This document shows, one piece after another, positions 3,018 to 50,592 of a DNA stretch of 51,316 bases. Location: contig CAMFCQ010000010.1 in NCBI GenBank assembly GCA_945948915.1, positions 1 to 51,316 of the forward strand. Direction: 5' to 3'. How positions within the stretch are numbered: the first letter of the stretch is position 1; the number at the start of each line of letters is the position of its first letter. This stretch comes from an uncultured Clostridia bacterium (GTDB lineage: Bacteria; Bacillota; Clostridia; Christensenellales; Aristaeellaceae). A program made the translations under genes and the position numbers. The notes below the pieces were generated by a model that did no database searches, was not told the DNA's origin, and saw only the letters and a list, made by a program, of their open reading frames with translations.

Positions 3018-3057
3018 TCCGGTCTGACACGCGCAACCAAGGAACAGAACATACAAG

Positions 3058-3093
3058 CCCTCCGCCGCGGAATGGATTCTCCGCGGCGGAGGG
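3058..3093. terminator. Strong hairpin between convergent genes
   Basis: A 13-bp perfect stem, CCCTCCGCCGCGG (3058-3070) with CCGCGGCGGAGGG (3081-3093), sits between the stop of the GH51 gene and the stop of the GH120 gene. Flanking T-rich sequence is modest on both sides, so it probably serves both strands. Confidence 0.75.
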
Positions 3094-3102
3094 CCGTTTG
3101 TA

Positions 3103-5124
3103 TTATTCACCGGCAGAGGCTTTCCACGCATACTCAACCGGGCCGGCGACGGGCATATCGCTCCGCTTCGCGCCGTACAAATCCGTATCGAAGACGATCC
3201 TCTCACCGTCAGGCGTCTCAAAGCGCTCTTCCGGCTCAAAGGCCATGCCCAGCGTGTCGGTGCTGATCAGCTGCGCCTTCGGCAGATACCGGAACAGGTC
3301 GCTCTCCACAACGATCCGGCCGTTTTCCTCCCTGAGCGTAACGGCGACATCATGCTGCGTATCCACCGCGGGCGCTTCCTCCAGCCTGCAGGGTACGGCG
3401 CCGTTGAAGTACACATTGCCGTTCAGCCACACCGGCAGCGGCATGTAGTACTTGTCTCGGGTGTCCGCCGAGCCTTCGCCGCAGTAGCCCGCAAAATGCT
3501 CGGCCCACTGCTCATAGGTCATATAGCCGTCGAAGCTCTGGGTGCCTGCGATCAGGTTGCCGTCATCCCATTCGTCCTGATGATCCTCTTCGCAGATGTC
3601 CAGCAGACCCTGGCGGACCTTCTGCTGTACGAACACGTTGTTGTAGAAGCGGACGTCGCCGTGCAGGATGGACATGAGGTTGACGATATCCGTGGAATGC
3701 GGACGGTGGACAGGGGTATAGCGCGTGGAATCGTACTGCACCGTGCCGTTCTTTACGCCGCGTCCGACGCCGGTAATCGCGCCGCAGAACAGATTGTGCA
3801 CAAACGCAACGCCCTGCGCGGCCAGCCTGACGCTTCGTTCAGACCGGAAGACGTTGTTGTCCACCAGCGTGGGGCCGTGCGCCACCTCGATCCACAGATC
3901 CTCGCCCAGGCCCAGACCGGCCTTGTTCTCCTTCTTCAGCAGCCAGTCCCGGGACATGCAGTTGTCATGGAAGACGTTGCAGGAAACCCGGGTTCCCTGC
4001 GCCTGCCAGTCCAACCAGATGCCGCGGGTACAGTCATGAAAGTGATTGTTGCGGATGATCACATCGATGGCCGCATGCAGCTTGATGCCGCCGATTTCCG
4101 CGCCGGCCAGATTGCGCTTGTTGTTGATGTGGTGGATATGGTTGTTCTCGATGAGCGAGAACACGCAGCCGAGATTGCCGACGATGCCGGTCTGGCCGCA
4201 GTCGTGGATGTCGCAGCCCCGGACCGTGTGAGAACCAATCGTCTCCTTGCTCCATCCGTCGAGCTGTGCGATGAGCGAACACTCGCGCTGGGTTTGCGCG
4301 CCGTCCTTCACCTTTCTGCGCGACCACCGGTTGTCGTTCCCCTGCTGCAGATATTTTCCCAGGGAGATGCCGCTGCATTTGGAATGGGAGATCTCGCAGT
4401 CCTCAATCACCCAGCCCTTGGACCAGTGCGGCCCGATCATGCCGTCCTGCAGCGCGGTGGGCGGCGCCCACTGTGTGGCAGCCCGGGTCACCACAAAGCC
4501 GGACAGCGTGATGTAGTCCACATGCTCCTGTACGGGATAGAAGCAGTGCGGCCGGACATTGATCTCCACCCGTTCCTCATTGGGATTCTTTCCCTGAAAA
4601 TTGGCGTAGATGATGGTCTCGTCGCGCTCCTGCGCCTGACAAGTATACCATGTATGCAGCGTGAAATCGATATCCCACGAGCCCTCATAGGGCGTGGGAT
4701 GGAGCACCTTTTCATAGGCGTCCACTTCGTACAGGGATTTGTCGTCGAGATAGACCTCGCCCGTATGCACCGGCGCCAGCTGATTGAGCCAGTCGCCCCA
4801 CACGCGGGTGGTGTACGGGTTGCACGATCCGAAAAAGCTGTTGGGCAGCACAAGCTTCCACACGTCGCCCTCCACCCATGTCCAGCCCTTTGCAGGCTCT
4901 GCGCCGGTGATGACGGCCGCCCTCGGTGTGGCCGAGCGGAACACCACCGGATGCTCCCGGGTGCCGGCGGTCATCGGAGAGATTTCCTCCCGGTAAACGC
5001 CGGGCATCACAAGCACCTCGTCTCCCGGCCCGGCGCACCGGGCGGCATCCGAGATCCTTTGGAAGGGTTTTTCACGGCTGCCATCTCCGTGGATCTTGGC
5101 ATGAACATCAACATACAATTGCAT
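3103..5124 (-). CDS. Beta-xylosidase, glycoside hydrolase family 120 (right-handed beta-helix)
   Basis: This enzyme releases xylose from the non-reducing end of xylo-oligosaccharides. The 673-residue protein closely follows the pattern of the characterised GH120 enzyme XylC of Thermoanaerobacterium as I recall it: PNSFFG near residue 95, IYANFQG near 172, EINVR, GPHWSKGW, GIKLHAAIDV and LDWQAQGTR. By that comparison Asp372 (LDW) is the nucleophile and Glu413 (IEVAHGP) the acid/base. There is no signal peptide, so it works in the cytoplasm. ATG 5124 has GGAAGGAG 5-9 bases upstream. The gene is monocistronic and convergent with the GH51 gene. Pectate-lyase-like annotation is the usual automatic name for the fold, but the catalytic residues fit GH120. 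Confidence 0.88.
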   Translation of the reverse strand: MQLYVDVHAKIHGDGSREKPFQRISDAARCAGPGDEVLVMPGVYREEISPMTAGTREHPVVFRSATPRAAVITGAEPAKGWTWVEGDVWKLVLPNSFFGSCNPYTTRVWGDWLNQLAPVHTGEVYLDDKSLYEVDAYEKVLHPTPYEGSWDIDFTLHTWYTCQAQERDETIIYANFQGKNPNEERVEINVRPHCFYPVQEHVDYITLSGFVVTRAATQWAPPTALQDGMIGPHWSKGWVIEDCEISHSKCSGISLGKYLQQGNDNRWSRRKVKDGAQTQRECSLIAQLDGWSKETIGSHTVRGCDIHDCGQTGIVGNLGCVFSLIENNHIHHINNKRNLAGAEIGGIKLHAAIDVIIRNNHFHDCTRGIWLDWQAQGTRVSCNVFHDNCMSRDWLLKKENKAGLGLGEDLWIEVAHGPTLVDNNVFRSERSVRLAAQGVAFVHNLFCGAITGVGRGVKNGTVQYDSTRYTPVHRPHSTDIVNLMSILHGDVRFYNNVFVQQKVRQGLLDICEEDHQDEWDDGNLIAGTQSFDGYMTYEQWAEHFAGYCGEGSADTRDKYYMPLPVWLNGNVYFNGAVPCRLEEAPAVDTQHDVAVTLREENGRIVVESDLFRYLPKAQLISTDTLGMAFEPEERFETPDGERIVFDTDLYGAKRSDMPVAGPVEYAWKASAGE

Positions 5125-37487: not shown

Positions 37488-37532
37488 ACCAAATATAAAG
37501 CTGTTCGAATTCAAACATGTTAAGAGGGTTTT

Positions 37533-38210
37533 ATGAAAAAATATATCCATGCTCTGACAAAATGTCCTGTTTTTTCCGGTATCAATGAGGAAAACCTTCT
37601 CGTGATGCTCACTTGCATGGATCCGCAGATCTGCCGCTATTCAAAGAATCAGCCTGTACTGCGCGCAGGCGATCCCGCAAGATATATGGGTATCGTTCTC
37701 AGCGGCCGCGTGCAGGTGATCCGCGACGCTGTGTGCGGCAGCCGCAGCATCATTGCTGACTTTGGTCCGCTTCAGGTCTTCGGCGCGGCATTCGCCTGCT
37801 CTTTCATTGATGCGCTTCCCGTGAGCGTCATGGCAGCCGCCGACAGCGAAATCATGCTGATTGACTGCCGGCGGATCATGACCACATGCTCAAACACCTG
37901 CGCTTTCCATGCGAAAATGATTGCCAATCTGCTCAGGAATGTCTGTGAACGCAATGTCCTTTTCAATCAGAAACTGGAAATCGTCACCAAGCGCACCACC
38001 CGCGAAAAGCTCCTTGCTTTCTTTGACGGCTTCGTCCATCAGGCCGGATCTCTGCGTTTTTCAATTCCCTATAACCGCCAGCAGCTCGCCGATTATCTGG
38101 GCGTGAGCCGCTGCGCTATGGTCACTGAGATGACCAGAATGAAGGAAGATGGCCTGATCGATTTCAGAGGAAACGAATTTGAGATTTTTCTGACTACACA
38201 GACAAAATAG
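37533..38210 (+). CDS. Crp/Fnr family transcriptional regulator
   Basis: The 225-residue protein has an N-terminal cyclic-nucleotide-binding-like beta-roll (about 10-130: AGDPARYMGIVLSGRVQVIRD) and a C-terminal winged helix (about 150-220) with recognition helix near RQQLADYLGVSRCAMVTEM. Cysteines at 11, 28 and 34 are present, but the compact cluster of FNR is not obvious, so an oxygen-sensing cluster is uncertain. It is divergent from nrfA and probably activates the nitrite and cytochrome genes under anoxia or nitrosative conditions. The ribosome site AAGAGGG is close to the start. Confidence 0.9.
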   Translation: MKKYIHALTKCPVFSGINEENLLVMLTCMDPQICRYSKNQPVLRAGDPARYMGIVLSGRVQVIRDAVCGSRSIIADFGPLQVFGAAFACSFIDALPVSVMAAADSEIMLIDCRRIMTTCSNTCAFHAKMIANLLRNVCERNVLFNQKLEIVTKRTTREKLLAFFDGFVHQAGSLRFSIPYNRQQLADYLGVSRCAMVTEMTRMKEDGLIDFRGNEFEIFLTTQTK

Positions 38211-38221
38211 AAAATGCAAAA

Positions 38222-38269
38222 AGCTTTCGCCTCTCTTTCCAGTGAGTAGCGAAAGCTGTTTCTGTTTTC
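38222..38269 (+). terminator. Terminator of the Crp/Fnr gene
   Basis: AGCTTTCGC (38222-38230) pairs perfectly with GCGAAAGCT (38249-38257), followed by GTTTCTGTTTTC, 12 bases after the stop codon. Confidence 0.85.
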
Positions 38270-38293
38270 GACAATATTGATATTTCCGGGATT

Positions 38294-38456
38294 ATACTAA
38301 TTCGCAGTTAAAATGCCTAATAGAGTGCATCAGGTTTTTCGCCCTGACGAAGCCGAGTGAAGTGAGGCGTTACTTAAGGTACGTTGAACGAAACAAGGCA
38401 AAGTCAGAGCGGAAAAGATGGTGCGCGGATTAGGCAATTTTAACAAGAATTAGTAT
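38294..38456. mobile_element. MITE copy 2
   Basis: This 163-base element has terminal inverted repeats of about 28 bases (ATACTAATTCGCAGTTAAAA at left; TTTTAACAAGAATTAGTAT at right, three mismatches or gaps). If the ends are taken as CTAATTC and GAATTAG, it is flanked on both sides by TA (38295-38296 and 38454-38455), the target duplication of IS630/Tc1-mariner elements. The inside also folds back (CCCTGAC with GTCAGAG). It codes for nothing and was presumably moved by a transposase elsewhere. Confidence 0.85.
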
Positions 38457-38610
38457 TACACCGCGTAGGAATACAGGCCCGGCAGCAGCTTATTGACGCC
38501 AGCGAAGGTGAAGAGCACACAGAATACTGCAATCACCGCAAACCACGCCATCCTCTTGCCCTTCCAATTCATTCTCATCCTCTGATGCAGATAAACCGCG
38601 TATAGAATTG
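38457..38610 (-). pseudogene. Duplicated 3' end of ccsA
   Basis: The minus strand encodes VYLHQRMRMNWKGKRMAWFA and continues to LLPGLYSYAV plus stop, the last 47 residues of CcsA with four substitutions compared with the complete gene at 34012. Similarity starts exactly at the stop codon beside MITE copy 2 and stops near 38610. The following 130 bases (38611-38740) hold nothing I can identify. Confidence 0.85.
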
Positions 38611-38739
38611 AAAAGTAATTCTCATTTTAAACATTCCATAGTAGTGAAAACAGAAATGTGTGGAGAATGATTCATCCATTCTATTTTCGTGGGAATAAAG
38701 CGTTTGCAAAACGCGCAGCCGCATGGGTTCACCGTGCGT

Positions 38740-39075
38740 TCACAAAGGGGATTTGAGACGCTGATAGGATTTCGTGATCGACACCGTCCCAGCGTCGAAA
38801 TCGAAATCAGCAGGCGTCAGCGCCAGCAGCTCACCCTCTCGGATGCCGCACCAGTAGAGCATTTCAAAGGCGTAGTAGGAGATGGGCTTGTCCATCATCG
38901 CCTCTGAAAACCTCATATACTCGTCCTTCGTCCAGAAGAGCATTTCCCGGCGTTCTTCTGTGCCCATGTTCCCGGCACGCTGCGCGGGATTAACCATCAG
39001 CCCATAATATCTGATCGCATGATTGAAGATTGCGCTCAGCTGGTTATGCACCGTCTTGAGATACGTTGAGGAAAA
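38740..39075 (-). pseudogene. Tyrosine recombinase (phage-type integrase) internal fragment
   Basis: The frame encodes TYLKTVHNQLSAIFNHAIRYYG, the end of the core-binding domain, then EMLYWCGIREGELLALTP with the first catalytic arginine of the tyrosine recombinase family, and breaks off after TKSYQRL. The N-terminal arm and the rest of the catalytic domain (HxxR, Tyr) are missing. It marks an old integrative element here. Confidence 0.75.
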
Positions 39076-39184
39076 AGGACGGCCTTTGGAATTGCCTGAG
39101 CGCGCAGAGCAGAGCAAAGACTTTGAGATTGATGACCTGCTCCCCTGGTCAGAAGAAATGAAGTCGTGGTTCTCGGCAGTGTGA
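39076..39184 (+). pseudogene. Probable IS66-family transposase C-terminal fragment
   Basis: The plus strand frame ends PLELPERAEQSKDFEIDDLL, PWSEEMKSWFSAV and stop, which resembles the C-terminal end of IS66-type transposases (…LLPW…). Only about 35 codons remain, joined directly to the integrase fragment on the other strand. The identification rests on a short stretch and is tentative. Confidence 0.35.
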
Positions 39185-39286
39185 GTGCCGGGAATCACGA
39201 CTTTTTGTATCGGGGAATTATTGAGCGGTTACTCTGGTTCTAACCTCCACCGGTTGAGTCGGTAGTTGTACTTTTGGACAACAGTA

Positions 39287-39344
39287 AAAAATGCGACAGA
39301 GCGCTAAGCATTAAATTCCTTAACATCTGTCGCATTTTTATTTG
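39287..39344. terminator. Bidirectional terminator after the lipoprotein gene
   Basis: AAAAATGCGACAGA (39287-39300) pairs perfectly with TCTGTCGCATTTTT (39326-39339). The A/T runs at both sides make it work on either strand; it ends the protease-lipoprotein operon on the minus strand. Confidence 0.85.
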
Positions 39345-39366
39345 GGAAGTAAATACATTATGGAGT

Positions 39367-39723
39367 TTAGTTCATTGGCAATTCACCGGGCTGGGCAGAA
39401 AAATCTTTGAGAACCAGAGCACCTAATGTACCATTTGCAAATTCAAACGAAAATGCAAGACCTTCTTCATTATAGTGCAGGAATCTTATGCAGTGCTCTT
39501 TCTGCAGCAGTTTCAACAGCTTCTCTGCTTTTTCTTTCCGTTCTTCGAGTGAAGCATCCTCATACTCTTTGCTGTTCAATAGCGAATTGATCTGTTTCTG
39601 GGCAGTATCCGCCTTTTGATCACCGTTCTTTCCTATATCCAGCGCAAAGCAAGCCATAGAGCATCCGGCTACTCCTACAAGAATGATGATCAAACAAACT
39701 ACAATTATTCGGTTCATAATCAT
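39367..39723 (-). CDS. Small lipoprotein resembling the pre-protease segment of its neighbour
   Basis: No named family. The 118-residue product has a hydrophobic signal segment (6-18) and the lipobox VAGC with Cys21, so it should be anchored to the outer face of the membrane. Residues about 44-106 (INSLLNSKEYEDASLEERKE… through FSFEFANGTLGALVL) align by eye with residues about 318-381 of the adjacent protease (IVSLLNDKDF … LQLISFAYPEEILGGVMY): shared SLLNxK, EKxL, SF and LGxxx. Its start overlaps the protease stop (ATGA), so translation is coupled. A propeptide-like inhibitor or chaperone of the protease is a reasonable inference. Low GC compared with the first half of the window. Confidence 0.75.
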   Translation of the reverse strand: MIMNRIIVVCLIIILVGVAGCSMACFALDIGKNGDQKADTAQKQINSLLNSKEYEDASLEERKEKAEKLLKLLQKEHCIRFLHYNEEGLAFSFEFANGTLGALVLKDFSAQPGELPMN

Positions 39724-42341
39724 TGGATTCTTACATTATCGATCAAACAGGCAGAATCATAGATTCTATCGCCAACATCATAAATAATGAAGCTCAATGT
39801 AACCACTTTATTGCTGAGTGCAGAAACATCGATACTTACCGTAGTCCAGCCCGTATGGTAGGTTGTATGATCACCACCAACAAAGTCAATATTCTTTACC
39901 AAGGACCACTCAGACGAGTTGATCGATTCATAGATCTGATTGTGATGTACCTGAGATCCGCGGGTAAGCTGCACGGCGAAAGCATCATTGAATACGCTTC
40001 CAACGTATTCCATTGGCTCCTCAGAAACGAAATCATAGGTAAAGGTCAGCTTTTTCGCACCCTGAGGTACACGGAAGGTCTGATAGAGAATCGAGCCTTC
40101 GGTGCCATTGCCAAACTGCGCATCATTCTGAGAACCAATTCCCGTGCTGATGAATGCTGCGCGTATACCATTGGAGCTTTTCGTGATAAGATTTCCAAGG
40201 CTCATCAGGTTCCGAACATCGCCCATGCTCTCCCAGTATAGGGGAGTCGTGGAGAACATGCTGATCTTTTCAAAATTACCATTCTTCAAGCCATCAACTA
40301 GTCGTGCATTGTCATCGCCTTTCAAAACAGGATAGGCAACATGTTCATTTGCGTTATATTTCTCTTTATTCGCGGCATAGTATTGTTGCAGAGTTGTAGA
40401 ATGTGTTGAATTGTACCAGATCTCGTGATTGGCACCAAACGCCGCAATCGCATGATTGTATGCAGCTCTGGATGTATCCCCTTCAATCAGCCGATTAACA
40501 TAATCATACATGATTCCGCGGCTGTAATCAGCAAAAACAGAATTGTGGAATCCAATATACCCCTTGGCAGAATGATTAATGAATGCATTGGCCATGCTGT
40601 AGTCATATTTAGAAGAATTGCTGCCCTTGCCGTGGCCCAATGCCTGGCAGCACTCTGAAAAAATGAATGTATTGGAGAAGTCACTGCCTGTATACTGCTC
40701 TTCTATGAACCTGGGAAGCAACCAATAACGACCATTGACATTAGCAATCTGCTTATCCTTCAGTTCGGCATCATATGCGCTGTTTTTGCCTTCCGTTGCG
40801 ATTTCTGCCAGGCAAATAGCAGGGGTCTCACTCAGCCACAGGAATCCGTGCCGATACGTTCCCCCGTGAGTCGAGATGGAGACAACATTATATTCATCCA
40901 ATTTCTTATAATCTTCAACAGTTGGGTTAACAATCAAAGTCGTGTCAAGCCCGGCGGCATCCCATGCCGATTTCGCAGTTTCATAAAAAGTGGTTCTATA
41001 CGCAATCATGTTCGGTTTTGTTTCAAATGTGGGGAAGGAGTTGAGAATGACGGCTTTCCCCAGTTCATCGTTTTCATCTGAATTGAATGCCATGAGCATG
41101 GGCATACTATCCGCGGCAGGAACATTATAAACGTCGTAACTATCGATGGCTTCTTGACGCTGGGAGTCGTTTCCGTTCATGTCAGGATTGAGGTTCCCAT
41201 ACATGACACCGCCGAGAATTTCTTCCGGATATGCAAAGGAAATGAGCTGCAAATCTTTATGAACTTCAATAGAGTCGGCTTCAACCTGACCACTGGCAAC
41301 GAATTTCTGAAGCATCTTCTCAACGATTTTCGCCTTTTGATCGTCATCCTGTTCCATAAAGTCTTTATCATTCAGCAAACTGACGATACTGGCGTTAACC
41401 GCATCCATTGCCTTCAAAGTGGAGCTCGAGATCGGCGTATAGTACGAGACAATGATCTCATTCGAAACACTGGAACCGAGCCTTGCCACAAAAGCAAGGT
41501 CAACATCGCTCGTTACATGCGCATTTACTGCAGCACTGTAAATGTTGTCGCCTGCAATATCATCTGCGCCTTCACCATCGTCAAACATCTGAACACTTGT
41601 GTTCAGATTACCTGCTTCTCCATAGAACAGATCAATAGAAGGAACGGTCGTATTGGTTTCCAGATACAGAATCAGGTCATCATCGCCCTTACCAATCGTT
41701 ACCACATTGTGATTGGCGTGCAGCTGGAAATAATCTCCAACAGCATAGCTCAAAAGGTACGATACACTCGCGTTCACTTCAACCGGAACGCCATCAACAA
41801 GCACCGTTTCATGAAGATCAACGTTGAAGACTTGACCATTTCCATCTGCGCTTGCCACCGTCGGCACTACAGCAGTGCTTACCAAAATGACACAAAGAAT
41901 CATGGACAAGATACGTTTTGTCCGTTTGGCCCTCACGAAGACAACGATCAAACACAGAAGACACACGCTTGCAAATACAACCCACAGGAACAGTTGACTA
42001 TCATCGCCAGTTTGTGGAAGATTAACGTATCCTGTAGCATAGTTTGCAGTAATCGTTGAGGATTTGCCGCCCTGGATAATCCCCACATTTTTAGACACAT
42101 CCGAACCGTGAACTAATGATTTTCCTTCGGGAACCGAAAGCTTCATTTCAACAGATTCGATAGCACTGGAATTCGTGTTCTTTACCGTCAGAACGGCTAC
42201 GATTTCCTCATCTATGGTATATTCTGTTTTATTTGTGGTCAGTGAGACTTCAACACCATTGGAAAAATCGGTTGCTGCAAAGCAACTTGACGCTATGCAA
42301 ATATAGACTAGCGTCAGTAAGACAACGAAAACTCTTTTCAT
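39720..42341 (-). CDS. Secreted/membrane-tethered caspase-like (clan CD) cysteine protease with internal LPQTG segment
   Basis: The 873-residue protein starts with a signal peptide (to about 22), then an Ig-like domain (about 25-105). LPQTG at 108-112 is followed by a helix (117-136) and RAKRTKR, exactly like a sortase signal, but the chain continues with another hydrophobic segment ending TVASADG (about 144-166), like a second signal peptide. Then come a beta domain with DDGEGADDIAGDNIYSA (253-270), a charged helical segment (310-382), the putative protease domain with His492 (STHGG) and Cys564 (FIFSECC), and a C-terminal jelly-roll domain (about 720-873; YDFVSEEPMEYVGSVFND). The His-Gly and E-C pattern after hydrophobic strands is typical of clan CD peptidases. 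AAGGAGGAG precedes ATG 42341. Confidence 0.75.
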   Translation of the reverse strand: MKRVFVVLLTLVYICIASSCFAATDFSNGVEVSLTTNKTEYTIDEEIVAVLTVKNTNSSAIESVEMKLSVPEGKSLVHGSDVSKNVGIIQGGKSSTITANYATGYVNLPQTGDDSQLFLWVVFASVCLLCLIVVFVRAKRTKRILSMILCVILVSTAVVPTVASADGNGQVFNVDLHETVLVDGVPVEVNASVSYLLSYAVGDYFQLHANHNVVTIGKGDDDLILYLETNTTVPSIDLFYGEAGNLNTSVQMFDDGEGADDIAGDNIYSAAVNAHVTSDVDLAFVARLGSSVSNEIIVSYYTPISSSTLKAMDAVNASIVSLLNDKDFMEQDDDQKAKIVEKMLQKFVASGQVEADSIEVHKDLQLISFAYPEEILGGVMYGNLNPDMNGNDSQRQEAIDSYDVYNVPAADSMPMLMAFNSDENDELGKAVILNSFPTFETKPNMIAYRTTFYETAKSAWDAAGLDTTLIVNPTVEDYKKLDEYNVVSISTHGGTYRHGFLWLSETPAICLAEIATEGKNSAYDAELKDKQIANVNGRYWLLPRFIEEQYTGSDFSNTFIFSECCQALGHGKGSNSSKYDYSMANAFINHSAKGYIGFHNSVFADYSRGIMYDYVNRLIEGDTSRAAYNHAIAAFGANHEIWYNSTHSTTLQQYYAANKEKYNANEHVAYPVLKGDDNARLVDGLKNGNFEKISMFSTTPLYWESMGDVRNLMSLGNLITKSSNGIRAAFISTGIGSQNDAQFGNGTEGSILYQTFRVPQGAKKLTFTYDFVSEEPMEYVGSVFNDAFAVQLTRGSQVHHNQIYESINSSEWSLVKNIDFVGGDHTTYHTGWTTVSIDVSALSNKVVTLSFIIYDVGDRIYDSACLIDNVRIQ

Positions 42342-42633
42342 AACAGTATTTCTCCTCCTTTTTTCACAGCAAATGCGCTATCATGTATCTCCAATATGTC
42401 TTCCTATATCTTATTTTCTCCTTGATTCATCCAGTATTCTGCTGTTTGCTCAGCGCCTTTCCTTATCATCAAATGACATTCAGGAAATTCTAGCTTTTCT
42501 CCTCCACGAAAAGCGTTGCCTTAACGCTGTCTCTGGATACCGTCGCCGTCCATGCGGACAGCGCGAGCGCTTTGCTCATCCGGTATACGGGCGTCATCAA
42601 TGCCAGAATTGTTCGTTTTATCCATATCCCCCC

Positions 42634-42684
42634 AATCCCACACGTTATCCAATCCTGCACGTTATCCAATCCCGCACGTTATAA
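42634..42684. repeat. Three tandem 17-bp direct repeats
   Basis: AATCCCACACGTTATCC, AATCCTGCACGTTATCC and AATCCCGCACGTTATAA stand head to tail in the divergent region between the protease gene and the HTH gene. They look like operator iterons for a regulator. The rest of the gap (42342-42633 and 42685-42815) contains no gene that I can support; a TATGAT at 42790-42795 may be the -10 of the HTH gene but lacks a good -35. Confidence 0.75.
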
Positions 42685-42815
42685 TACTAACGTTTATTTT
42701 ACTCTGCTTACCCGTCGTCTGTCCATCGTTTTTTGTCCACATAAGTGTGTATTTTTGTCATATTCACACAATCCATCCACATTTTGGTGTATGATAACAT
42801 GCGGAGGGGATAACA

Positions 42816-44270
42816 ATGGATATTGTCGATCTATTTCAGCAGATTCTGGCGTCTCATCATCTCTCGCAGCGAGCGGTCTGCGGCATGCTCGGATTTACTT
42901 CCGCCAATCAGATGACCCGTATCCTTAAACGACAGGTCAGCCATAAGTACTTGGTGAAGTTCGGAAATCTTCTGCTCGAACACAGGCAGGAGCTTGGCTT
43001 GACTGACAGAGAGACGGCTGATTTACAAGCCTGCTGTATGTCAATAAACCTGAACACCGACGACGAAACAGCTGCGAGCATTTTCTTCAGCGCCATCAGC
43101 AGGCCAACTGATTCAAGAAAAGAAGCTGACATAGCCCTCTATGATGCAGAGTGGACATCTATGGGTTCACTGAAATCCGCCTTTCACGATGCTGTCAGTC
43201 TGAGTCTTTCCATCGTTAGCTGTCTGAACCTGCCACTTTGCAGCATTCTCGATGCATGGGAAACGCATTGCATCTTGAATGTCGAATACTATCATCCTGA
43301 AGGAAAGAGAAACGCTCTGAGCGCACAATACCTGCGCAGCATCTGGCCCTTTTTGCACAAGCCCTGGTTCCATCCTTATTGCGTCAAGCGAAGACAGAAC
43401 GTCGCCTGTGATGGTCTGATCCACGCTGATGTTGCATTGATAGACGCAGAATTCTCCGAGGGCGAGCGCAAAAGCTACATGCTGGTACCGCAGTCTGAAC
43501 ACGCTGCCGTCTTGCTGCCCTTTCCAGAGCATCATTTGCCCTTTCAGCGAATCCTGTTTCCTCAGCATGACACCATCTATCCTCTCGAAATTCCTCAGCA
43601 AAATGAGGAGAACTACATACAATACCTCCGATACTTACAGAATCTGGAGCGTAACCACGAGGCTTTTCTCATCAAAGCTGATATGTGCCTGAACATGATT
43701 CCCGCAGAAATTCAGCTCCGCGCTCTTCAGGAAGGGCCAATGAGCAGTTATCCCGGCATCGAAGAAACTCTCGCGCCGATGTACGCCATTGAGAAGGAAC
43801 GCTATGAGAATAATCGCAACAAGAAAAAGTATCAGTACTATCTGCACACTTACGATGGCCTTCTGAGATTTATGGAAACCGGTATCGAGTCCGATCATTT
43901 CTGGGGCTTCCGGCCATTTACGCCTGAAGAACGCTATCAAATCCTTTCCGAATTGTACAATCGTGCGGCCAATTCTCCATATACACATCTGTTTTTCTTA
44001 AAGCCCGGAATTCATCTGATTCCCGACGAAATTGGGTGGTATGAAGATCGGGGAATCTGCTTTCTTCTTCCGCAAACACACTATGACATTGAACACGGGC
44101 ACTCAGAACTGCTTTTTCAAGATCCCTCTTTTTGCCGGTTTTTCAGTGGATACTTCCGGAAATGGATTTGCCAGCACTATGCTTATTCCAAGGCGGACAG
44201 CCTGATAATGCTTCAGAATTTGTTGGAGCAATTCTCGATAACTGTCACCAACCCTGAGGATTCTTTCTGA
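42816..44270 (+). CDS. Unrecognised 484-residue protein with N-terminal HTH
   Basis: No family recognised. Residues about 1-60 form a helix-turn-helix of Cro/C1-like size (LSQRAVCGMLGFTSANQMTRIL), suggesting DNA binding. The remaining 420 residues are soluble, mixed alpha/beta, rich in aromatic residues and His, with no signal peptide, membrane segment or familiar catalytic motif. GGAGGGG lies nine bases before ATG 42816. It is divergent from the protease gene across the tandem repeats, so it probably controls that gene, with the C-terminal part acting as sensor. A hairpin (GAGAATGA with TCATTCTC, 44269-44288) follows the stop. Base composition is low GC like the protease genes. Confidence 0.75.
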   Translation: MDIVDLFQQILASHHLSQRAVCGMLGFTSANQMTRILKRQVSHKYLVKFGNLLLEHRQELGLTDRETADLQACCMSINLNTDDETAASIFFSAISRPTDSRKEADIALYDAEWTSMGSLKSAFHDAVSLSLSIVSCLNLPLCSILDAWETHCILNVEYYHPEGKRNALSAQYLRSIWPFLHKPWFHPYCVKRRQNVACDGLIHADVALIDAEFSEGERKSYMLVPQSEHAAVLLPFPEHHLPFQRILFPQHDTIYPLEIPQQNEENYIQYLRYLQNLERNHEAFLIKADMCLNMIPAEIQLRALQEGPMSSYPGIEETLAPMYAIEKERYENNRNKKKYQYYLHTYDGLLRFMETGIESDHFWGFRPFTPEERYQILSELYNRAANSPYTHLFFLKPGIHLIPDEIGWYEDRGICFLLPQTHYDIEHGHSELLFQDPSFCRFFSGYFRKWICQHYAYSKADSLIMLQNLLEQFSITVTNPEDSF

Positions 44271-44541
44271 GAATGACATCTCATTCTCTAGCCTTCTTAC
44301 TGTTCCAATTGGTTTCAGAATTGGCACTATCTATTCTCGTTGAATACTTGCTGACAGAATCCCGGGACAGATACTACCCCTGACACAATTGTTCGCCAGT
44401 TCATCTCTGCATATCATTTGATTCAAGATGAACTGGATTACATGTGTTTCAGCAGATTCAAAGACATGATTGCGACTGAATTCTTCTTTCGTTATTCTTA
44501 ATAATACCCGCTGTACCTCGAGCCATCTTGGCACAGCAAAA

Positions 44542-44587
44542 GCAGCGGCGCTCCGCCAGGATTGCCGCTGCCCTTATTTTTCTTTTG
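44542..44587 (+). terminator. Intrinsic terminator in the gap after the HTH gene
   Basis: GCAGCGGC (44542-44549) pairs with GCCGCTGC (44564-44571), followed by CCTTATTTTTCTTTT. The rest of 44289-44762 holds only short, non-homologous frames; I see no gene in it. Confidence 0.75.
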
Positions 44588-44762
44588 CGCGCACCTTTAC
44601 TGCACACTGTCGCGTCTATATACCACTCATGAATAAGATTCATGTTTTCCGCAAAACCAATCAAACATCTTCACAATCGTATTCCGGCAACGACTCCTTG
44701 CCGGTTCAGTCCCCTTCAGACCACCATTCTAATCGGCGATTATTGCCAGCTCTCGTTTCCAT

Positions 44763-45125
44763 CTATTCTGAAGTCTCTTCTTTCTGGGGACTCTGTTGGC
44801 ATAACTGTCCGGCAAAACAAAACGCATGGTATTCTTCAATCTTCTCAATAATATATGGCGCATCTGTTTTCTTACTCTTTGTCGTCGGTAACAATCTTAA
44901 CCCGTAGTGCTTCAGCAAATCTCAGAGTTTCTTTCTGTCTATTCTAAGAAGCTCATTCAACTTCATCAACAGTTTATCCCGCATTTCCTTGCTGAGCCGC
45001 TTTCCTCCAATCAAACCGTACTTCTCAAGGAACGCCTCCACCATCTCCCTCTTGTCGTCAGGAGCACTTGCATATTTAAGAATCCACCTTTCTGCGAAAG
45101 GCACCAATGGGGTTATGAAACCCAA
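44763..45125 (-). pseudogene. Unrecognised gene fragment interrupted by an in-frame TGA
   Basis: From ATG 45125 a frame of 67 codons (AERWILKYASAPDDKREMV…LLRIDRKKL) hits TGA at 44922-44924, and the same frame continues for another 52 sense codons (DLLKHYGLRLLP…IIEKIEEYHAFCFAGQ) to a TAG at 44763. Both parts look like natural, charged helical protein. No family is recognised. Because TGA is a normal stop elsewhere here, a nonsense mutation in a decayed gene is the simplest reading. Confidence 0.45.
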
Positions 45126-45189: not shown

Positions 45190-45463
45190 ACCCGAGGAGG
45201 TGAGTGGCGGGGCTGAATAGCGGCAAACCCCGCATATTTATGTGGAGTCGGCTGTCCGTTAAGGCATCAATGAATGGCGCAAAACCGTAGCCCGTAAACT
45301 TATCTCTTCCGAAGTTGACTCGATTTCGCCGGACAGCCAGTCCCTGCCGACTCTGCAAACTCTTGCAGGAGAGACGCCATGTTCAAAATCTTCCGCAAAA
45401 ACTGCTGTGGACTGGATGTTCACAAGACCTGGATCTATGCCTGTATCGGCATCACCGATCTGA
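45190..45463 (+). mobile_element. IS110-family left end with start of transposase
   Basis: ATG 45379 opens a frame encoding FRKNCCGLDVHKTWIYACIG, the first strand of the IS110 DEDD transposase (the Asp in GLDVH is a catalytic acid), with homology ending after about 28 codons at 45463. Upstream is a structured leader: GCGGGG/CCCCGC (45207-45212, 45228-45233) and GGCTGTCCG/CGGACAGCC (45250-45258, 45330-45338) closed by GAGTC/GACTC (45245-45249, 45349-45353). In IS110 elements this side encodes the guide (bridge) RNA. The remainder of the element is lost. Confidence 0.75.
45207..45353 (+). ncRNA. Candidate IS110 bridge-RNA region (remnant)
   Basis: The two nested stems described for the IS110 left end enclose internal loops of suitable size (about 70 bases at 45259-45329) directly upstream of the transposase start. 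This agrees in position and architecture with IS110-group bridge RNAs, but I cannot verify loops or target pairing, and the truncated transposase cannot use it. Confidence 0.4.
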
Positions 45464-45562
45464 TGTTAGTTCGTTCACGCATCCATCTCATACATGTGAT
45501 GAAGGTACATAGAAGGAAAAAATTGGCTGATGTATTTTTTAGAGCCTCAAAGGACGCATTCG

Positions 45563-46079
45563 TTATCGTGGAATGTATGCGAATGTATGCAGTACATGTC
45601 CAACAATGCCGCCAGCGTCTTCTGCCGCAGTAATGCTGCCGTTGTTGGTGCAGTTGCGGATGACCGCCTTTGCAGACGTATCGCCCACGCCGAGGCCGCT
45701 TGCAAGGCCAACAATGCCACCGGCATAGTCGCCGCTGATGACATGACCGTTTCCGCCAAAAAACGCCATCGAAGGAATGATAATAGCCGATGGGCGTCCA
45801 GATGTTCTCCGGAGGATTTTCGTCCCAGGCGTCAAAGCTGGCGCAATCGTTGAGCGCGATGTCTGCGGTCAGTTGATAATGGCTGTCATAGTAATCATCG
45901 AACAACTCATCATCATTTATCATCGCTGCAAGCTGCATCAGTTCTTCCACATTCCCAATCAGATATGGGCTTTCCGCCGTGCCTTCGCCGGCAAGAGTGA
46001 ATTCAGATACTTCCGCATAGGCCGCTGCGCAAAGCGCAAGGCAGAGAGCCAGCGCGGCAAGTCAAAGCTTCTTCAACAT
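45563..46079 (-). pseudogene. GLUG-repeat surface protein remnant
   Basis: A gene starting at ATG 46079 would encode a signal peptide (LAALALCLALCAAAYAEVS) but a TGA interrupts it six codons in. It continues through AESPYLIGNVEELMQLAAMI and LTADIALND, and after an extra T in a T-run (about 45755) switches frame to GGNGHVISGDYAGGIVGLAS and CTNNGSITAAEDAGGIVGHV, which are GLUG-type cell-surface repeats. Homology ends near 45563, close to the IS110 fragment. Intact relatives are much longer adhesion-like proteins. Confidence 0.75.
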
Positions 46080-46090
46080 ATTCTTACACT

Positions 46091-47074
46091 TCATCTCTTT
46101 GCATTTGCAATCAGGTCCGGCAGAAGTATTTCGTAATTGGAGTTTTTCAGCACATAGGTCTGATCGGCCACGATGAAAAATTCCTTCTTTCCCTGAAGCC
46201 CGCAGTTGGAAATCGCTGCCAGCGGAATTTCCAGCCAGGGCTTGGGGCCTGCGCCTGCCGCAGCTTTGACGCCCTCCATGAGCAGACCGCCCACGAGGCC
46301 GCCGCCCAGAGCACCTGCGAGGCCCATATTCTTTGAAAAATTGCCCTCGCGTGTCAAGAGGATGCGCTTGTTCGTCACTTCCATGTAGTATGAAAATTTT
46401 CTGCCGCCGTCAGGCTGCAGCAATGTGATCGGGTGATTTTTGCGCTTGGTTTCTTCACCCGGGAGCATTTCCCACTTTTTCATGGACTCGTCCGCATAGC
46501 GCACCTGGGCAGCGGTGGTCTGAACCGGCGTCACAGGTTTCGGAGGCCTTGCAACATGCGGTCTTGCAGTCATCTTCTGACCGCAGTTGGAACAGAACAC
46601 GCTGCCTGCATCGTTGAGCGCATGACAGTGGGGGCAGGAAACCCTCGCGGGCTGTGCAGGCTGGGGCTTGGACATGCTCTGGCCGCAGTTTTCGCAGAAC
46701 ATGCTGCCTGCAATATTCATCGCTTTGCAACGGGGGCAGGCGGCCATCTGAGGGGCCTGCTGCGCGGGAGCAGGTTTTGGCTGTGCGGCAGGCTTATCGT
46801 ACATGACGAAATTATCGCCCGTTGCCTTGCCGGGTTCATCCGGGATCACGATCTTCTGGCTTTGCAGCTCCTGCAGCTTGCGCTGGAGCGCTGCGATTTC
46901 CTCCAGACGCTTCTTTTCCTGTTCGATTTTCTCCAGGCGCTGACGTTCCTTTTCGCGCGCGGCCGCTTCAGCTTCTTCCTTGCGCTTCTTTTCCAGCATG
47001 ATGCGGCCGCGTATGAGCACACTGTCCAGCTCGTCCGCTGTCAGCGCGTTAAGCATTTTCAGAATTTCAATCAT
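46091..47074 (-). CDS. Coiled-coil protein with two zinc ribbons and C-terminal PH-like domain
   Basis: No named function. ATG 47074 is chosen because GGAGG lies eight bases upstream; the earlier ATG 47089 overlaps this site. Of 327 residues, about 25-75 form a charged coiled coil (KKRKEEAEAAAREKERQRLE), then Pro/Ala-rich linkers carry two zinc ribbons, CPRCKAMNIAGSMFCENCG and CPHCHALNDAGSVFCSNCG. The C-terminal part (about 200-327) has the PH/GRAM-like pattern of bacterial membrane-associated proteins (FSYYMEVTNKRILLTREG, a Gly-rich hydrophobic loop, FFIVADQTYVLKNSNYEILL). It is the last gene of a same-strand group; spacing to the upstream SHOCT gene is 21 bases. Confidence 0.75.
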   Translation of the reverse strand: MIEILKMLNALTADELDSVLIRGRIMLEKKRKEEAEAAAREKERQRLEKIEQEKKRLEEIAALQRKLQELQSQKIVIPDEPGKATGDNFVMYDKPAAQPKPAPAQQAPQMAACPRCKAMNIAGSMFCENCGQSMSKPQPAQPARVSCPHCHALNDAGSVFCSNCGQKMTARPHVARPPKPVTPVQTTAAQVRYADESMKKWEMLPGEETKRKNHPITLLQPDGGRKFSYYMEVTNKRILLTREGNFSKNMGLAGALGGGLVGGLLMEGVKAAAGAGPKPWLEIPLAAISNCGLQGKKEFFIVADQTYVLKNSNYEILLPDLIANAKR

Positions 47075-47095
47075 TGGTTGTACCTCCATGATGGG

Positions 47096-48319
47096 TTACA
47101 TCAGTTCGCGTACCTTCTGGTCGTATTCCTCCTGGCTCAGGATGCCGCAATCCAGCAGATCCTTGTACGCCTGAAGCTGTTTTGCAATCTCCTGATCGTT
47201 GCGCTTGGGCGCTGCCGCTTTGGGCGGTTCAGGAACGGTGTATTGGGGGTCGCTCTGAGGTTGCACGGGCGTTTCCTGCACGGGAGCAGAATAAACGCTT
47301 TGCGGCTCAGGCTGCACATAGCCCGCCTGCTGGTAGCTGACTTCGGGCTTTTTGCAGAGTCTGCAAAAGCAGATACCGCTGAAAAATACGGCCAATGTCA
47401 GGAAAACGATGGCGTATGCGCTCAGAAACGCCGGACGAACAAGTATATCGAGTCCAGGCCATCCACCATGGCGGGAGATCGTTTGAATCATCCTCCATAG
47501 GGTTTCATCGTCGGCGATCTCCTTTGAATAGGCCAGAAGCAGTGGCAGCAGGGGAACGAACCAGAGCCAGCGGACGATGCCGCCGCAGCGTTCTTTGATT
47601 TCCCGGTTTGAAAGCAAGGCAAAAATGCTCATCAGGAAGAATGCCGCTACTTTGAACGCGTGCATGGCAATCTCTGTGTAGACCCATTCGCCAAGCACTT
47701 GGCCGCCGGGGGCGTAATCACGGTAAGTGCACAACGCAACGTCGACGCTGCCCAAGGTGAGACCTATGAATCCGATCACAAACAGTATGGAAACCTGCTG
47801 TATATGCTTGGTGCGGAAGGCGGCAAGCATCAGCAATGTGCTCATGCCCGCCAGCGCGACTGCTCCGCTGTTCATCATATAATACGGCATGGATGAGATT
47901 TTCCCATAGATGGCCCCAAACCCCGCAACCGCTGCCAGCAGGAAGAAGATTCCGGCGGCGACCGGGGACTTTTTCACGGGCGCTGCGCTTGCTGCCGCAG
48001 CAGTACAGGCAGTCTGCTGCGGCTGGGCGTAGACGTTATTGGCTGTCGGTTGGGCATGGCCGATGTAGGAATCGGATGCAGAAACCTGTGCTTTCGCCGC
48101 CTTTGCAGCAGCCTTCGCCTTCTTTTTCTTTTCCTTATGCTCGCTGATGATGCCTGCAAGGAACATCAGGCCAAGTCCAACGGCGATCATGGCAATTGCC
48201 GGGAGTATACCGATTTCCTTTCCGACCAGGCCGCTGACAGCCATGACGATGCACACCGCGCCAATCATGCTGCAGATGGTCGCCAGAACGGAGTTTTTGT
48301 AGACAACAAAACGAACCAT
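47096..48319 (-). CDS. Multi-TM protein with C-terminal SHOCT domain
   Basis: The 407-residue product has two N-terminal helices, a charged Lys/Ala stretch (about 63-80), a Pro/Gln-rich linker, about six further helices (about 120-330), a second Pro/Gln-rich linker and a C-terminal SHOCT segment (YKDLLDCGILSQEEYDQKVREL), a short oligomerisation module common in phage and membrane proteins. Function is unknown. The zinc-ribbon paralogue ends 12 bases upstream, so all of these are likely one operon. Confidence 0.75.
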   Translation of the reverse strand: MVRFVVYKNSVLATICSMIGAVCIVMAVSGLVGKEIGILPAIAMIAVGLGLMFLAGIISEHKEKKKKAKAAAKAAKAQVSASDSYIGHAQPTANNVYAQPQQTACTAAAASAAPVKKSPVAAGIFFLLAAVAGFGAIYGKISSMPYYMMNSGAVALAGMSTLLMLAAFRTKHIQQVSILFVIGFIGLTLGSVDVALCTYRDYAPGGQVLGEWVYTEIAMHAFKVAAFFLMSIFALLSNREIKERCGGIVRWLWFVPLLPLLLAYSKEIADDETLWRMIQTISRHGGWPGLDILVRPAFLSAYAIVFLTLAVFFSGICFCRLCKKPEVSYQQAGYVQPEPQSVYSAPVQETPVQPQSDPQYTVPEPPKAAAPKRNDQEIAKQLQAYKDLLDCGILSQEEYDQKVRELM

Positions 48320-48331
48320 AATTCCTTCCCC

Positions 48332-49156
48332 TTACTTCACGGTGATTTTGTTCTTACCGATGTTGGGATATTCCTCACCCAGGGCAAAGTCCGGCGAGAA
48401 CTGCAGGCTATCAAACACCCGGTCAATCTCACCTTGGCCTATCTCAGCTTGGCTGGTCATCATCAGGCGTACTGTATAAGCATTGAGGGATTCTGCCTTG
48501 CTTTCGAAAATGATGAGTTCTCCGCCGTATAGATCTTTATCTTCCTGGGTAAACTTCACGATATAGCGGATTGCGGGATGACCGCAGATTTCATACTTGC
48601 GGAAATACACCATGCTGGCATCACCGGTATGGAGATTTATGGATTCCAGAATTCCGTCCGCGTCGCTCGCTTTGAAGGACGTACCGCCTTCCATCACTCT
48701 GTCTGCGCTGAAAACGCTGTTTCCATCCGCGGACTTCAGAAAATCGTCCTCATCTCCTTCGCCCTGCACCAGTTCATAACCCGGCAGATGTACCCTTACC
48801 AGACTGTACGTCAGGTAGCCATCCTGATAAAGCGCGCCCATATCACAATAGTTGGTCATGAAAGCATCCACAAGGGCCTGTTCGCCCGTATAGATGCTGC
48901 TCGGTTCAACATCGCCGTAGAGCACGTTTTCATAAATGTAGACGCCTGCGAAGAAAACAACAACGGCAATCAGTATGCCCAGAATGACTTTTCCCGTCTT
49001 GCCCTTTTTCTTGACCTTGGGAGCCGCAGGCTGTTTCGGCGCGGCGGTCTGCTGCGGCCGTGCCGGCTGTGAATCATTCACCTGTGTGCCGCAATAATTG
49101 CAAAACTTCGCCTGATCGGAAATCTCTTTCCCGCATTTGCTGCAAAACATACTCAT
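48332..49156 (-). CDS. Zinc-ribbon/one-TM protein, paralogue 1
   Basis: The 274-residue protein has an N-terminal zinc ribbon (CSKCGKEISDQAKFCNYCG, residues 5-23), a Pro/Lys-rich linker, one membrane helix (about 56-76) and an outer domain (about 95-274) with the shared pattern MGALYQDGYLTYSLVRV, LPGYELVQGEGDED, GGELIIFESKA and a C-terminal GKNKITVK. The ribbon would be inside and the repeat domain outside. Two neighbours share this layout. No function is known. Confidence 0.75.
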   Translation of the reverse strand: MSMFCSKCGKEISDQAKFCNYCGTQVNDSQPARPQQTAAPKQPAAPKVKKKGKTGKVILGILIAVVVFFAGVYIYENVLYGDVEPSSIYTGEQALVDAFMTNYCDMGALYQDGYLTYSLVRVHLPGYELVQGEGDEDDFLKSADGNSVFSADRVMEGGTSFKASDADGILESINLHTGDASMVYFRKYEICGHPAIRYIVKFTQEDKDLYGGELIIFESKAESLNAYTVRLMMTSQAEIGQGEIDRVFDSLQFSPDFALGEEYPNIGKNKITVK

Positions 49157-49161
49157 TCCCC

Positions 49162-50592
49162 TTACTTTACGGTGATACGCCTATCCGCAGAACCACTATA
49201 ATTTGTTTCAGTCACCTTGTATTCGGGCGAAACCTGCAGGGTATCAAAAACGTCATAGATATCCGTGTAATAATACCCTGCCGCCGCATCTGCGGTCATG
49301 GAAAAACCTAACACAGTATCGGATGTTTTATAAGGATATATGATGAGATGACCAATAAAAAAACTATATGACTCATCGTAATAATAACACCGGATGACCG
49401 GAAATCCGTTCACATAGTACTTTTCAAAGTCAATGCTCTCTGCAGGATACCACAAGAGATCGCTCAAATCCTTTGCAGTACATTCCTCAAAAGGCGGTGC
49501 AAGAAGATGCTGACTTGCGGAGATATGCAACGTGCCGTCCGCCGTGTACAAACGATCAACACCAATTTCTTCTAAAGTACGGTCCAGCTTATACCCGGGC
49601 AGATCCAGTTTGGCAAGGCCATATCGCAGGGTTCCGTTCTCATAGACTGCGCCATTGTCGCAGGAATCCATTGCCGCCTGAATTTCAGCTTCGCTCCACA
49701 GGGAACCGGTATTTACCTCTTCCGTCGCAGAATTGACAGTGTTTACAGCAGCTTCCTGCTTGGCGGAAGTATCTCCGCCCTTCACAGTGATGCGGCTCAG
49801 GCCGATGACATTGGTATCCTCCGCCTTCGGCGCAAACTGGGGATAGATATTCAGGCTCTCAAATACCTCTTCAATCTCATCAAAACCATATTCCGCCAGT
49901 TCATACATGTTCAGTCGGATGGTTTCTTTTGCAGCTTTCTCCGGGAACACGATCAGTTCGCCGATATACTGATCCATGCCCTCGATGGTGCATCTTGCGA
50001 TGCAGCGGATCACCGGATAGCCGTTCAGCTCCAGCTTCTTGTAAGAAACGATTTCTGCATTGCTGTCCATATTCCTGATGGACTGCAGCAGGCTTTCCCG
50101 GTTTGTTGCATCAAAGGAAATCGGTACGAGTTCGGTCTGCTTGTTGACGGTGAGCATACAGTTGCCGTCTTCGTTCATCAGGTAATCACCTTCACCCGCT
50201 TCGCCGGGTAGCAGCTCGTAACCGGGCACATAAAGCTTGGTCATGCCGTATCGGAGATAACCATCTTCATAAAGCCCGCCATAAATGCAGGCGTCCGCCA
50301 GCGAAGGCTGGGAAAGATCCAGTATCGTGCCGGATTCGCTCTGCTGCTTTACCTCTTTAGGCTTTGCCGTCAGGGCACTCTCAGCAACGTATCTTACCAT
50401 GATATAAATCACCACTGCCATAAGAAGAATCAGGATGCGCTTGCCTGTCCTTCCCTTCTTCTTGGGCACAGCAGTCGGCTGAGGTTCAGGCTGGTATTCA
50501 ACCTTGGAGACCGTCATGCTCATCTGTGTACCGCAATAATTGCAAAACTTCGCCTGATCGGAAATCTCTTTCCCGCAATTCTTGCAATACAT
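49162..50592 (-). CDS. Zinc-ribbon/one-TM protein with duplicated outer domain, paralogue 2
   Basis: The 476-residue protein starts with a zinc ribbon (CKNCGKEISDQAKFCNYCG, residues 3-21), a linker, one helix (about 50-68) and two copies of the outer domain (about 95-270 and 300-476). Each copy ends with a close version of RITVKG or RITVK and contains the GxLRYGxxKLxxPGYxL pattern. The doubling is unique among the three neighbours and suggests recent internal duplication. The gap to the gene below it is only five bases. Confidence 0.75.
   Translation of the reverse strand: MYCKNCGKEISDQAKFCNYCGTQMSMTVSKVEYQPEPQPTAVPKKKGRTGKRILILLMAVVIYIMVRYVAESALTAKPKEVKQQSESGTILDLSQPSLADACIYGGLYEDGYLRYGMTKLYVPGYELLPGEAGEGDYLMNEDGNCMLTVNKQTELVPISFDATNRESLLQSIRNMDSNAEIVSYKKLELNGYPVIRCIARCTIEGMDQYIGELIVFPEKAAKETIRLNMYELAEYGFDEIEEVFESLNIYPQFAPKAEDTNVIGLSRITVKGGDTSAKQEAAVNTVNSATEEVNTGSLWSEAEIQAAMDSCDNGAVYENGTLRYGLAKLDLPGYKLDRTLEEIGVDRLYTADGTLHISASQHLLAPPFEECTAKDLSDLLWYPAESIDFEKYYVNGFPVIRCYYYDESYSFFIGHLIIYPYKTSDTVLGFSMTADAAAGYYYTDIYDVFDTLQVSPEYKVTETNYSGSADRRITVK

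Follow-up and report, generated by a model that had tools for sequence, protein, structure and literature searches.

The 51,316-nucleotide window analysed here, one contig (CAMFCQ010000010.1) of the 2.9 Mb, 158-contig and 88.69% complete genome of an uncultured Clostridia bacterium (GCA_945948915.1), encodes on its minus strand a predicted caspase-like exported protease and, immediately behind it, a small predicted lipoprotein whose body is homologous to the protease's own residues 308-381, the segment ahead of the catalytic domain; this homology we regard as established, with hardly any reservation. The protease open reading frame (ORF; 39720-42341, 873 aa) and the lipoprotein ORF (39367-39723, 118 aa) overlap in the four bases ATGA, in which the protease stop TGA lies at 39720-39722 and the lipoprotein start ATG at 39721-39723, so that an earlier sequence-only reading of this DNA was correct about both the coordinates and the overlap, as judged from the ORF list, the translation and the sequence. 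The two proteins are probably translationally coupled, and would then be co-expressed. As the likeliest hypothesis, the segment would serve as a prodomain, and the lipoprotein would add a further dose of it at the membrane and thereby protect the producing cell; we accept this reading about as readily as we doubt it.

Compared directly, the lipoprotein and the protease segment are similar above chance, but this similarity is weak when taken alone. BLASTP of the lipoprotein against the window protease gives E 0.003, while the Smith-Waterman score is 50, which 12 of 3000 shuffles attain when the whole protease is the target and 3 of 3000 when only residues 300-400 are; a narrower pair (score 45) is matched by 4 of 3000 shuffles, and segment against segment the observed score is reached by 2 of 5000. 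An ungapped scan of 793 offsets is best at offset 274, which places lipoprotein residues 34-74 on protease residues 308-348 with a score of 38 (next best 31 at offset 299; mean -32.8, standard deviation 12.9). The stronger connection runs through a third protein, L105 (record MT835937.1, human faecal, unannotated and labelled unverified). Its BLASTP match to the lipoprotein has E 3e-07 over lipoprotein residues 36-107, with 22 of 68 residues identical in the segment alignment, and its match to the window protease, segment included, has E 2e-44 at 29% identity over 378 positions. The lipoprotein scores 73 against the L105 segment (best of 5000 shuffles 45), and the L105 segment scores 80 against that of the window protease (best of 5000 shuffles 48).

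The predicted structures have the same register. The lipoprotein model was made from the single sequence (mean predicted local distance difference test, pLDDT, 67.5; about 80 at model residues 41-80 and 57-68 at 11-40), while the protease model covers residues 166-873 and is based on an alignment in which the lipoprotein was not present; its mean pLDDT is low (50.9), with 72-82 in the ten-residue blocks holding the segment helices and 44 to 87 in those of the catalytic domain. Helices are predicted at 13-28, 31-34 and 38-54 of the lipoprotein model and at 141-158, 161-164 and 168-184 of the protease model. An offset of 130, or 274 in full-length numbering, which the ungapped sequence scan also ranked best, brings five of the six helix ends into agreement; the remaining one differs by two residues, the first helix starting that much earlier in the protease. 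Of the lipoprotein strands (58-63, 69-74, 79-83), the last two match protease strands 201-206 and 210-215 after a two-residue shift, while the first has only a two-residue counterpart in the protease model.

Profile searches were less uniform. A profile of 15 homologues built without the window protease ranks the lipoprotein first among sequences absent from the profile (11.9 bits; best of 5000 shuffles 9.3). After realignment, and tested against 10,000 shuffles and 2812 natural ORFs, it ranks first when the profile keeps all 18 rows, second once the window protease is taken out (11.2 bits, equal to the best shuffle), seventh when L105 is removed as well, and fourth when the same-genus L005 is also left out; overall it comes first in three of the six tests. 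Distant members alone therefore do not find the lipoprotein, and since the first profile result is unstable to realignment, the weight of the argument rests on the L105 bridge. The alignment made by eye in the sequence-only reading thus stands as a statement of homology, through L105 and the helix register, although its extent is 308-381 and not 318-381; of the profile and structure comparison that it had proposed, the structural half came out in its favour, while the profiles singled out the lipoprotein in only half of the tests.

The lipoprotein would be anchored through a lipobox-like motif VAG/C at its residues 18-21 (39661-39672, minus strand), read by eye with the usual lipobox consensus, and the standalone copy of the segment occupies its residues 34-104 (39412-39624, minus strand). 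A profile combining the segments of the lipoprotein, L105 and the window protease found no third copy in the same genome at E <= 10, and Foldseek of the lipoprotein model gave no match better than E 0.34. Pfam candidates DUF4446 and DUF3139 were rejected, being below cut-off and lying on the signal peptide and helices.

In the protease, the segment (residues 307-381; 41199-41423, minus strand) was delimited by profile matches and by a predicted succession of helix, short helix, helix and strands. Homologues were surveyed in 45 distinct proteins outside the window, each with at least some surrounding sequence and most fetched by their catalytic domain; with profile detection at E up to 0.05, the segment lies ahead of the catalytic domain in 24 of them, 17 being themselves rows of the profiles used and the remaining seven having been found independently among 28 others. 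The linker between the matched stretches is 27-69 residues long in 23 of the 24 (164 in L095); it is modelled with confidence below 50 in the window protease (model residues 223-260) and is proline/threonine-rich in L012, which suggests that the segment is an autonomous domain. In short family members it occupies, by sequence, the position of a propeptide: L105 consists of a signal peptide, the segment directly after it, the catalytic domain and little else, and L080 and L081 open, by eye, with a signal peptide, which is followed by the segment (about residues 52-118) and by a catalytic domain starting at about residue 148-150 of the open frame. The proposal that this is a pre-protease domain is thereby strengthened. 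Among the 14 Pfam families listed at E <= 1 for 13 segment-bearing members there was no propeptide family, PepSY included, and the best PDB match of the segment profile, at E 0.0088, covers 34 helical positions in a lysozyme and is not credible.

The catalytic domain (residues 429-683; 40293-41057, minus strand) is delimited by its invariant His/Cys pair and by Foldseek. His492, in the motif STHGG (codon 40866-40868), and Cys565, in SECC (codon 40647-40649), lie in motifs that do not vary in two alignments containing the window protease, one of 7 and one of 12 sequences, and Y484, H492, G493, C565 and A592 are invariant in all 12. The best PDB matches of the protease model are SAVED-CHAT chains (from E 9.3e-05), followed by Craspase TPR-CHAT (2.4e-03) and caspase-9 (4.5e-03), together with some matches that are not caspase-like, for instance to the anti-sigma factor DdvA (E 4.6e-04) and to capsid proteins of phages and viruses. 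The caspase-like (clan CD-type) fold and the His-Gly and Cys motifs named by the sequence-only reading are therefore supported, the fold on a low-confidence model. By sequence the family is remote from described ones: no Pfam family describes the catalytic domain, those of clostripain, legumain, caspase and gingipain give no match to the window protease at E <= 1, and nothing credible was found in the PDB (best E 0.8 for the protease and 0.88 for the family profile). Of 12 members whose catalytic regions were scanned, one alone hit YabG U57, at E 0.095, and one Paenibacillus homologue matches YabG weakly over its catalytic region (E 0.013, 14.8 bits, family cut-off 270.4). The YabG spore protease, which has been proposed as a clan CD member (PMC12445089), has a His/Cys pair in common with the window family, but the window protease has no match to it and that of the Paenibacillus homologue is far below cut-off.

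If the segment is a prodomain, a helix-helix-sheet domain in propeptide position would keep the catalytic domain latent in cis while the protease is exported, and the lipoprotein, which is that domain by itself and would be anchored at the outer side of the cell membrane, would bind the same surface of the catalytic domain in trans. A protease activated too early, near its own cell, would thus stay inhibited until it is away from the membrane. In its complete form, a two-part latency in which an in-cis prodomain and a lipid-anchored trans copy are coupled by the gene overlap and the enzyme becomes active only after release, the proposal is conceivable, though we lean somewhat against it. The arrangement gains plausibility from described systems: SpeB-Spi, predicted lipoprotein inhibitors of Bacteroides and the latency of RgpB. 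In Streptococcus pyogenes, the gene of Spi adjoins that of SpeB and its product resembles the propeptide (PMC2873492, PMC3462683), being called a propeptide analogue (PMC2873492), and adjacency and segment homology are found here too. SpeB is, however, a papain-like C10 protease, and the cytoplasm is the proposed site of action of Spi (PMC3462683), whereas here the protease is caspase-like and the partner a predicted lipoprotein; since the target is not C10, we do not file the lipoprotein as a Spi and say only that it may work like one. The C10 proteases Bfp and Btp of Bacteroides have adjacent partners of 116-138 residues, Bfi and Bti, several of which are co-transcribed and several predicted to be lipoproteins (PMC3462683, PMC2873492). 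Those partners are staphostatin-like with papain-like targets, and Bfi is reported to lack significant identity with either propeptides or Spi (PMC2873492); the lipoprotein model, with its two long helices, one short helix and three strands, is unlike the mainly beta, lipocalin-like fold of staphostatins. The gingipain RgpB (C25, clan CD according to PMC12445089) is kept latent by a loop of its N-terminal prodomain in its active site (PMC13366090), which is like the role proposed for the segment; the available part of that source (PMC13366090) mentions no gene encoding a prodomain copy separately, and the window protease has no gingipain Pfam match.

Among the matches listed from the open-licence literature, none described a clan CD protease whose propeptide recurs as a lipoprotein. 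Inhibitors that copy a propeptide are already known, so if the inhibitor role holds, what would be new here is the caspase-like target and the lipoprotein form. The SpeB-Spi solution would then have been built a second time, for caspase-like enzymes and with the inhibitor fixed to the membrane, and it would offer a handle on, and a protein inhibitor for, a protease family whose catalytic domain is without a Pfam match above cut-off in the members scanned and which was seen in Paenibacillus, Halanaerobiales, Prevotella and Anaerolineaceae records.

Several results weigh against this prodomain reading. The segment was not detected in 21 of the 45 homologues, and 17 of the 24 that have it are profile rows. 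The protease model is of low confidence as a whole, and the literature matches listed included no report of activity for the family. The lipoprotein is not a plain recent copy of its neighbour's segment, as it scores 73 against the L105 segment and 50 against that of the neighbour. The pair, furthermore, is at present a single case, and here the sequence-only reading, which had looked to conservation of the pair across homologous loci, was not borne out: no standalone copy of the segment was found around the 45 homologues, whose loci were mostly fetched by the catalytic domain, and which are distant (L105, for example, at 29% identity). The downstream side was examined in 43 of them, two (L090 and L097) having no contig room left, and behind the protease gene in the other 41, where at least 434 bases of contig remain, no gene with the segment was seen; the same-genus copy L005/L101 runs off the contig end. 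Diverged partners could be missed, since the profile also misses the segment in 21 of the 45 proteases. One segment match in the same-genus genome G008 (L028/L047) was rejected as a standalone copy, being by eye a transporter-type binding protein.

A different role for the segment, as a docking or ligand-binding domain, would make the lipoprotein a membrane receptor or adaptor that holds the protease or its ligand, which we consider unlikely although it deserves attention. It would suit an autonomous segment on a flexible linker and the wide variety of companion domains in segment-bearing proteases (S-layer, von Willebrand A, dockerin). Because so many of the segment-bearing homologues are profile rows and the loci were mostly fetched by the catalytic domain, this explanation becomes slightly more likely and the prodomain reading slightly less so. 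Against docking, the segment adjoins the catalytic domain wherever it was found (24 of 45), but this is weak evidence for the same reason of how the loci were fetched; searches led by the segment in 29 same-genus genomes and the window's own also showed no clear copy elsewhere, and their yield was limited to two short matches, one of 23 positions in a transporter-type protein and one of 34 positions at E 0.07.

It seems rather improbable that the lipoprotein is the remnant of a lipid-anchored protease, of the type of L023 (lipobox-like motif, segment, catalytic domain), with no role or a drifting one. Such whole lipid-anchored enzymes may exist in the family, as five of the 45 homologues (L023, L025, L026, L095 and L096) fit a loose lipobox pattern near their start, that of L096 appearing spurious by eye. 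An origin of this kind would agree with a lipoprotein that is not closest to its own neighbour's segment, with the position of the pair in a stretch of lower G+C beside an integrase-like fragment, and with the lack of a pair elsewhere around the 45 homologues; the lipoprotein ORF is nevertheless intact, with its ATGA overlap and a predicted folded core, and the ORF list has no catalytic-domain ORF directly behind it.

We give still less credit to the idea that the lipoprotein, as a chaperone-type propeptide supplied in trans, helps the exported protease to fold. Prodomains can assist folding (PMC12445089), and the lipoprotein is the same domain as the segment, but the protease already has that domain in cis. 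Finally, a chance likeness between two helical, charged segments, for which the weak direct signal and the ranks of 7 and 4 in profiles lacking the window protease and L105 could be quoted, can practically be set aside in view of the L105 bridge, the helix register common to the two models and the first place in three of six profile tests.

As for delivery, the protease begins with a signal peptide (residues 1-23, by eye) and a small domain, after which comes an internal sortase motif LPQTG (residues 108-112; 42006-42020, minus strand) with a hydrophobic stretch and the basic RAKRTKR. All parts of an LPXTG signal are thus present, but internally rather than at the C-terminus, and residues 108-140 match NCBIfam LPXTG_anchor at 15.7 bits, just under the cut-off of 15.9; elsewhere in the same genome there are two sortase matches above cut-off. 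A second hydrophobic, signal-peptide-like stretch ending VASA/D follows (residues 144-165; 41847-41912, minus strand; by eye), then a beta-rich region with a choice-of-anchor X motif (residues 166-300; 41442-41846, minus strand), where residues 251-274 match NCBIfam choice_anch_X at 24.1 bits, under the cut-off of 25. Behind the catalytic domain lies a C-terminal region (residues 690-873; 39723-40274, minus strand) with a choice-of-anchor L domain (choice_anch_L, 42.9 bits at residues 756-868, cut-off 27). With the sorting motif inside the protein and another stretch like a signal peptide behind it, the catalytic portion may be set free and not fixed to the wall, so that the description as a surface protease calls for caution.

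Because the fused form recurs within the genus, an error in a single assembly is an unlikely explanation for it: four of the six same-genus loci found with the window protein alone (L003, L004, L007 and L008, of which L004 and L008 come from one genome) have the internal N-terminal LPXTG signal and the second signal-peptide-like stretch, with differing C-terminal parts. L008 is a caspase-domain protein (Pfam C14, 23.5 bits, cut-off 21.4), and L006 is an ordinary C-terminal LPXTG protein. In G008 (L005/L101), the two modules that the window fuses as one ORF are two genes: a 145-residue LPQTG protein ends in TGA (L005 1471-1908), and 27 bases on begins the protease gene (1936-3234, L101), with its own ATG, a GGGAGG site, a signal-peptide-like start, a GDxxxxDGVYS-type stretch, the segment and the HG/CC motifs. 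The pneumococcal IgA1 protease, which reportedly has an N-terminal LPNTG sorting layout (work cited in PMC7695701), likewise carries its sortase motif close to the N-terminus and before the protease part, but only this delivery layout is shared, the IgA1 enzyme being a zinc metalloprotease and that of the window caspase-like.

A search with the window protein alone found matches in 6 of 60 genomes, its own included, the five others matching mainly through the N-terminal 200 residues. When the catalytic region or a profile of two rows served as the query, the family was found in 2 of 391 genomes in the class, 3 of 297 in the order and 3 of 299 in the phylum (own included); a later profile of twelve rows found it in 6 of 391, 14 of 233 and 3 of 234, respectively, where the own genome is counted each time and the sets overlap. 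One scan of named genomes gave ten loci, six in Paenibacillus, two in Halanaerobiales and one each in Prevotella and Anaerolineaceae. Searches of plasmids and viral contigs found no protease relative, and those of viral contigs and phages no lipoprotein relative; two unannotated phage-labelled records contain relatives. By eye, L105 has tsaE-, tsaB- and upp-like neighbours, the tsaE-like gene standing next after it, and is therefore probably from a bacterial contig. Two protease homologues stand in tandem in the locus L084, and genome G608 has six family matches among the matches listed.

A ribosome-binding-like site, AGGAGGAG, lies ahead of the protease ORF at 42352-42359 (by eye). The pair is inside the stretch 37501-45000, over which G+C drops to 0.44-0.49 from about 0.56-0.64, and this stretch is possibly an acquired island. 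Downstream of the lipoprotein, an ORF of truncated appearance (38740-39198, minus strand) has a sub-threshold phage integrase match (21 bits, cut-off 27.1). A short plus-strand ORF at 45379-45633, without a Pfam match at E <= 0.001, carries a DVHK motif, which we take to be reminiscent of IS110-type transposases. Further on, at 46091-50592 (minus strand), successive genes encode zinc ribbons or a SHOCT domain, and the distant protease homologue L010 likewise has a zinc ribbon at its start.

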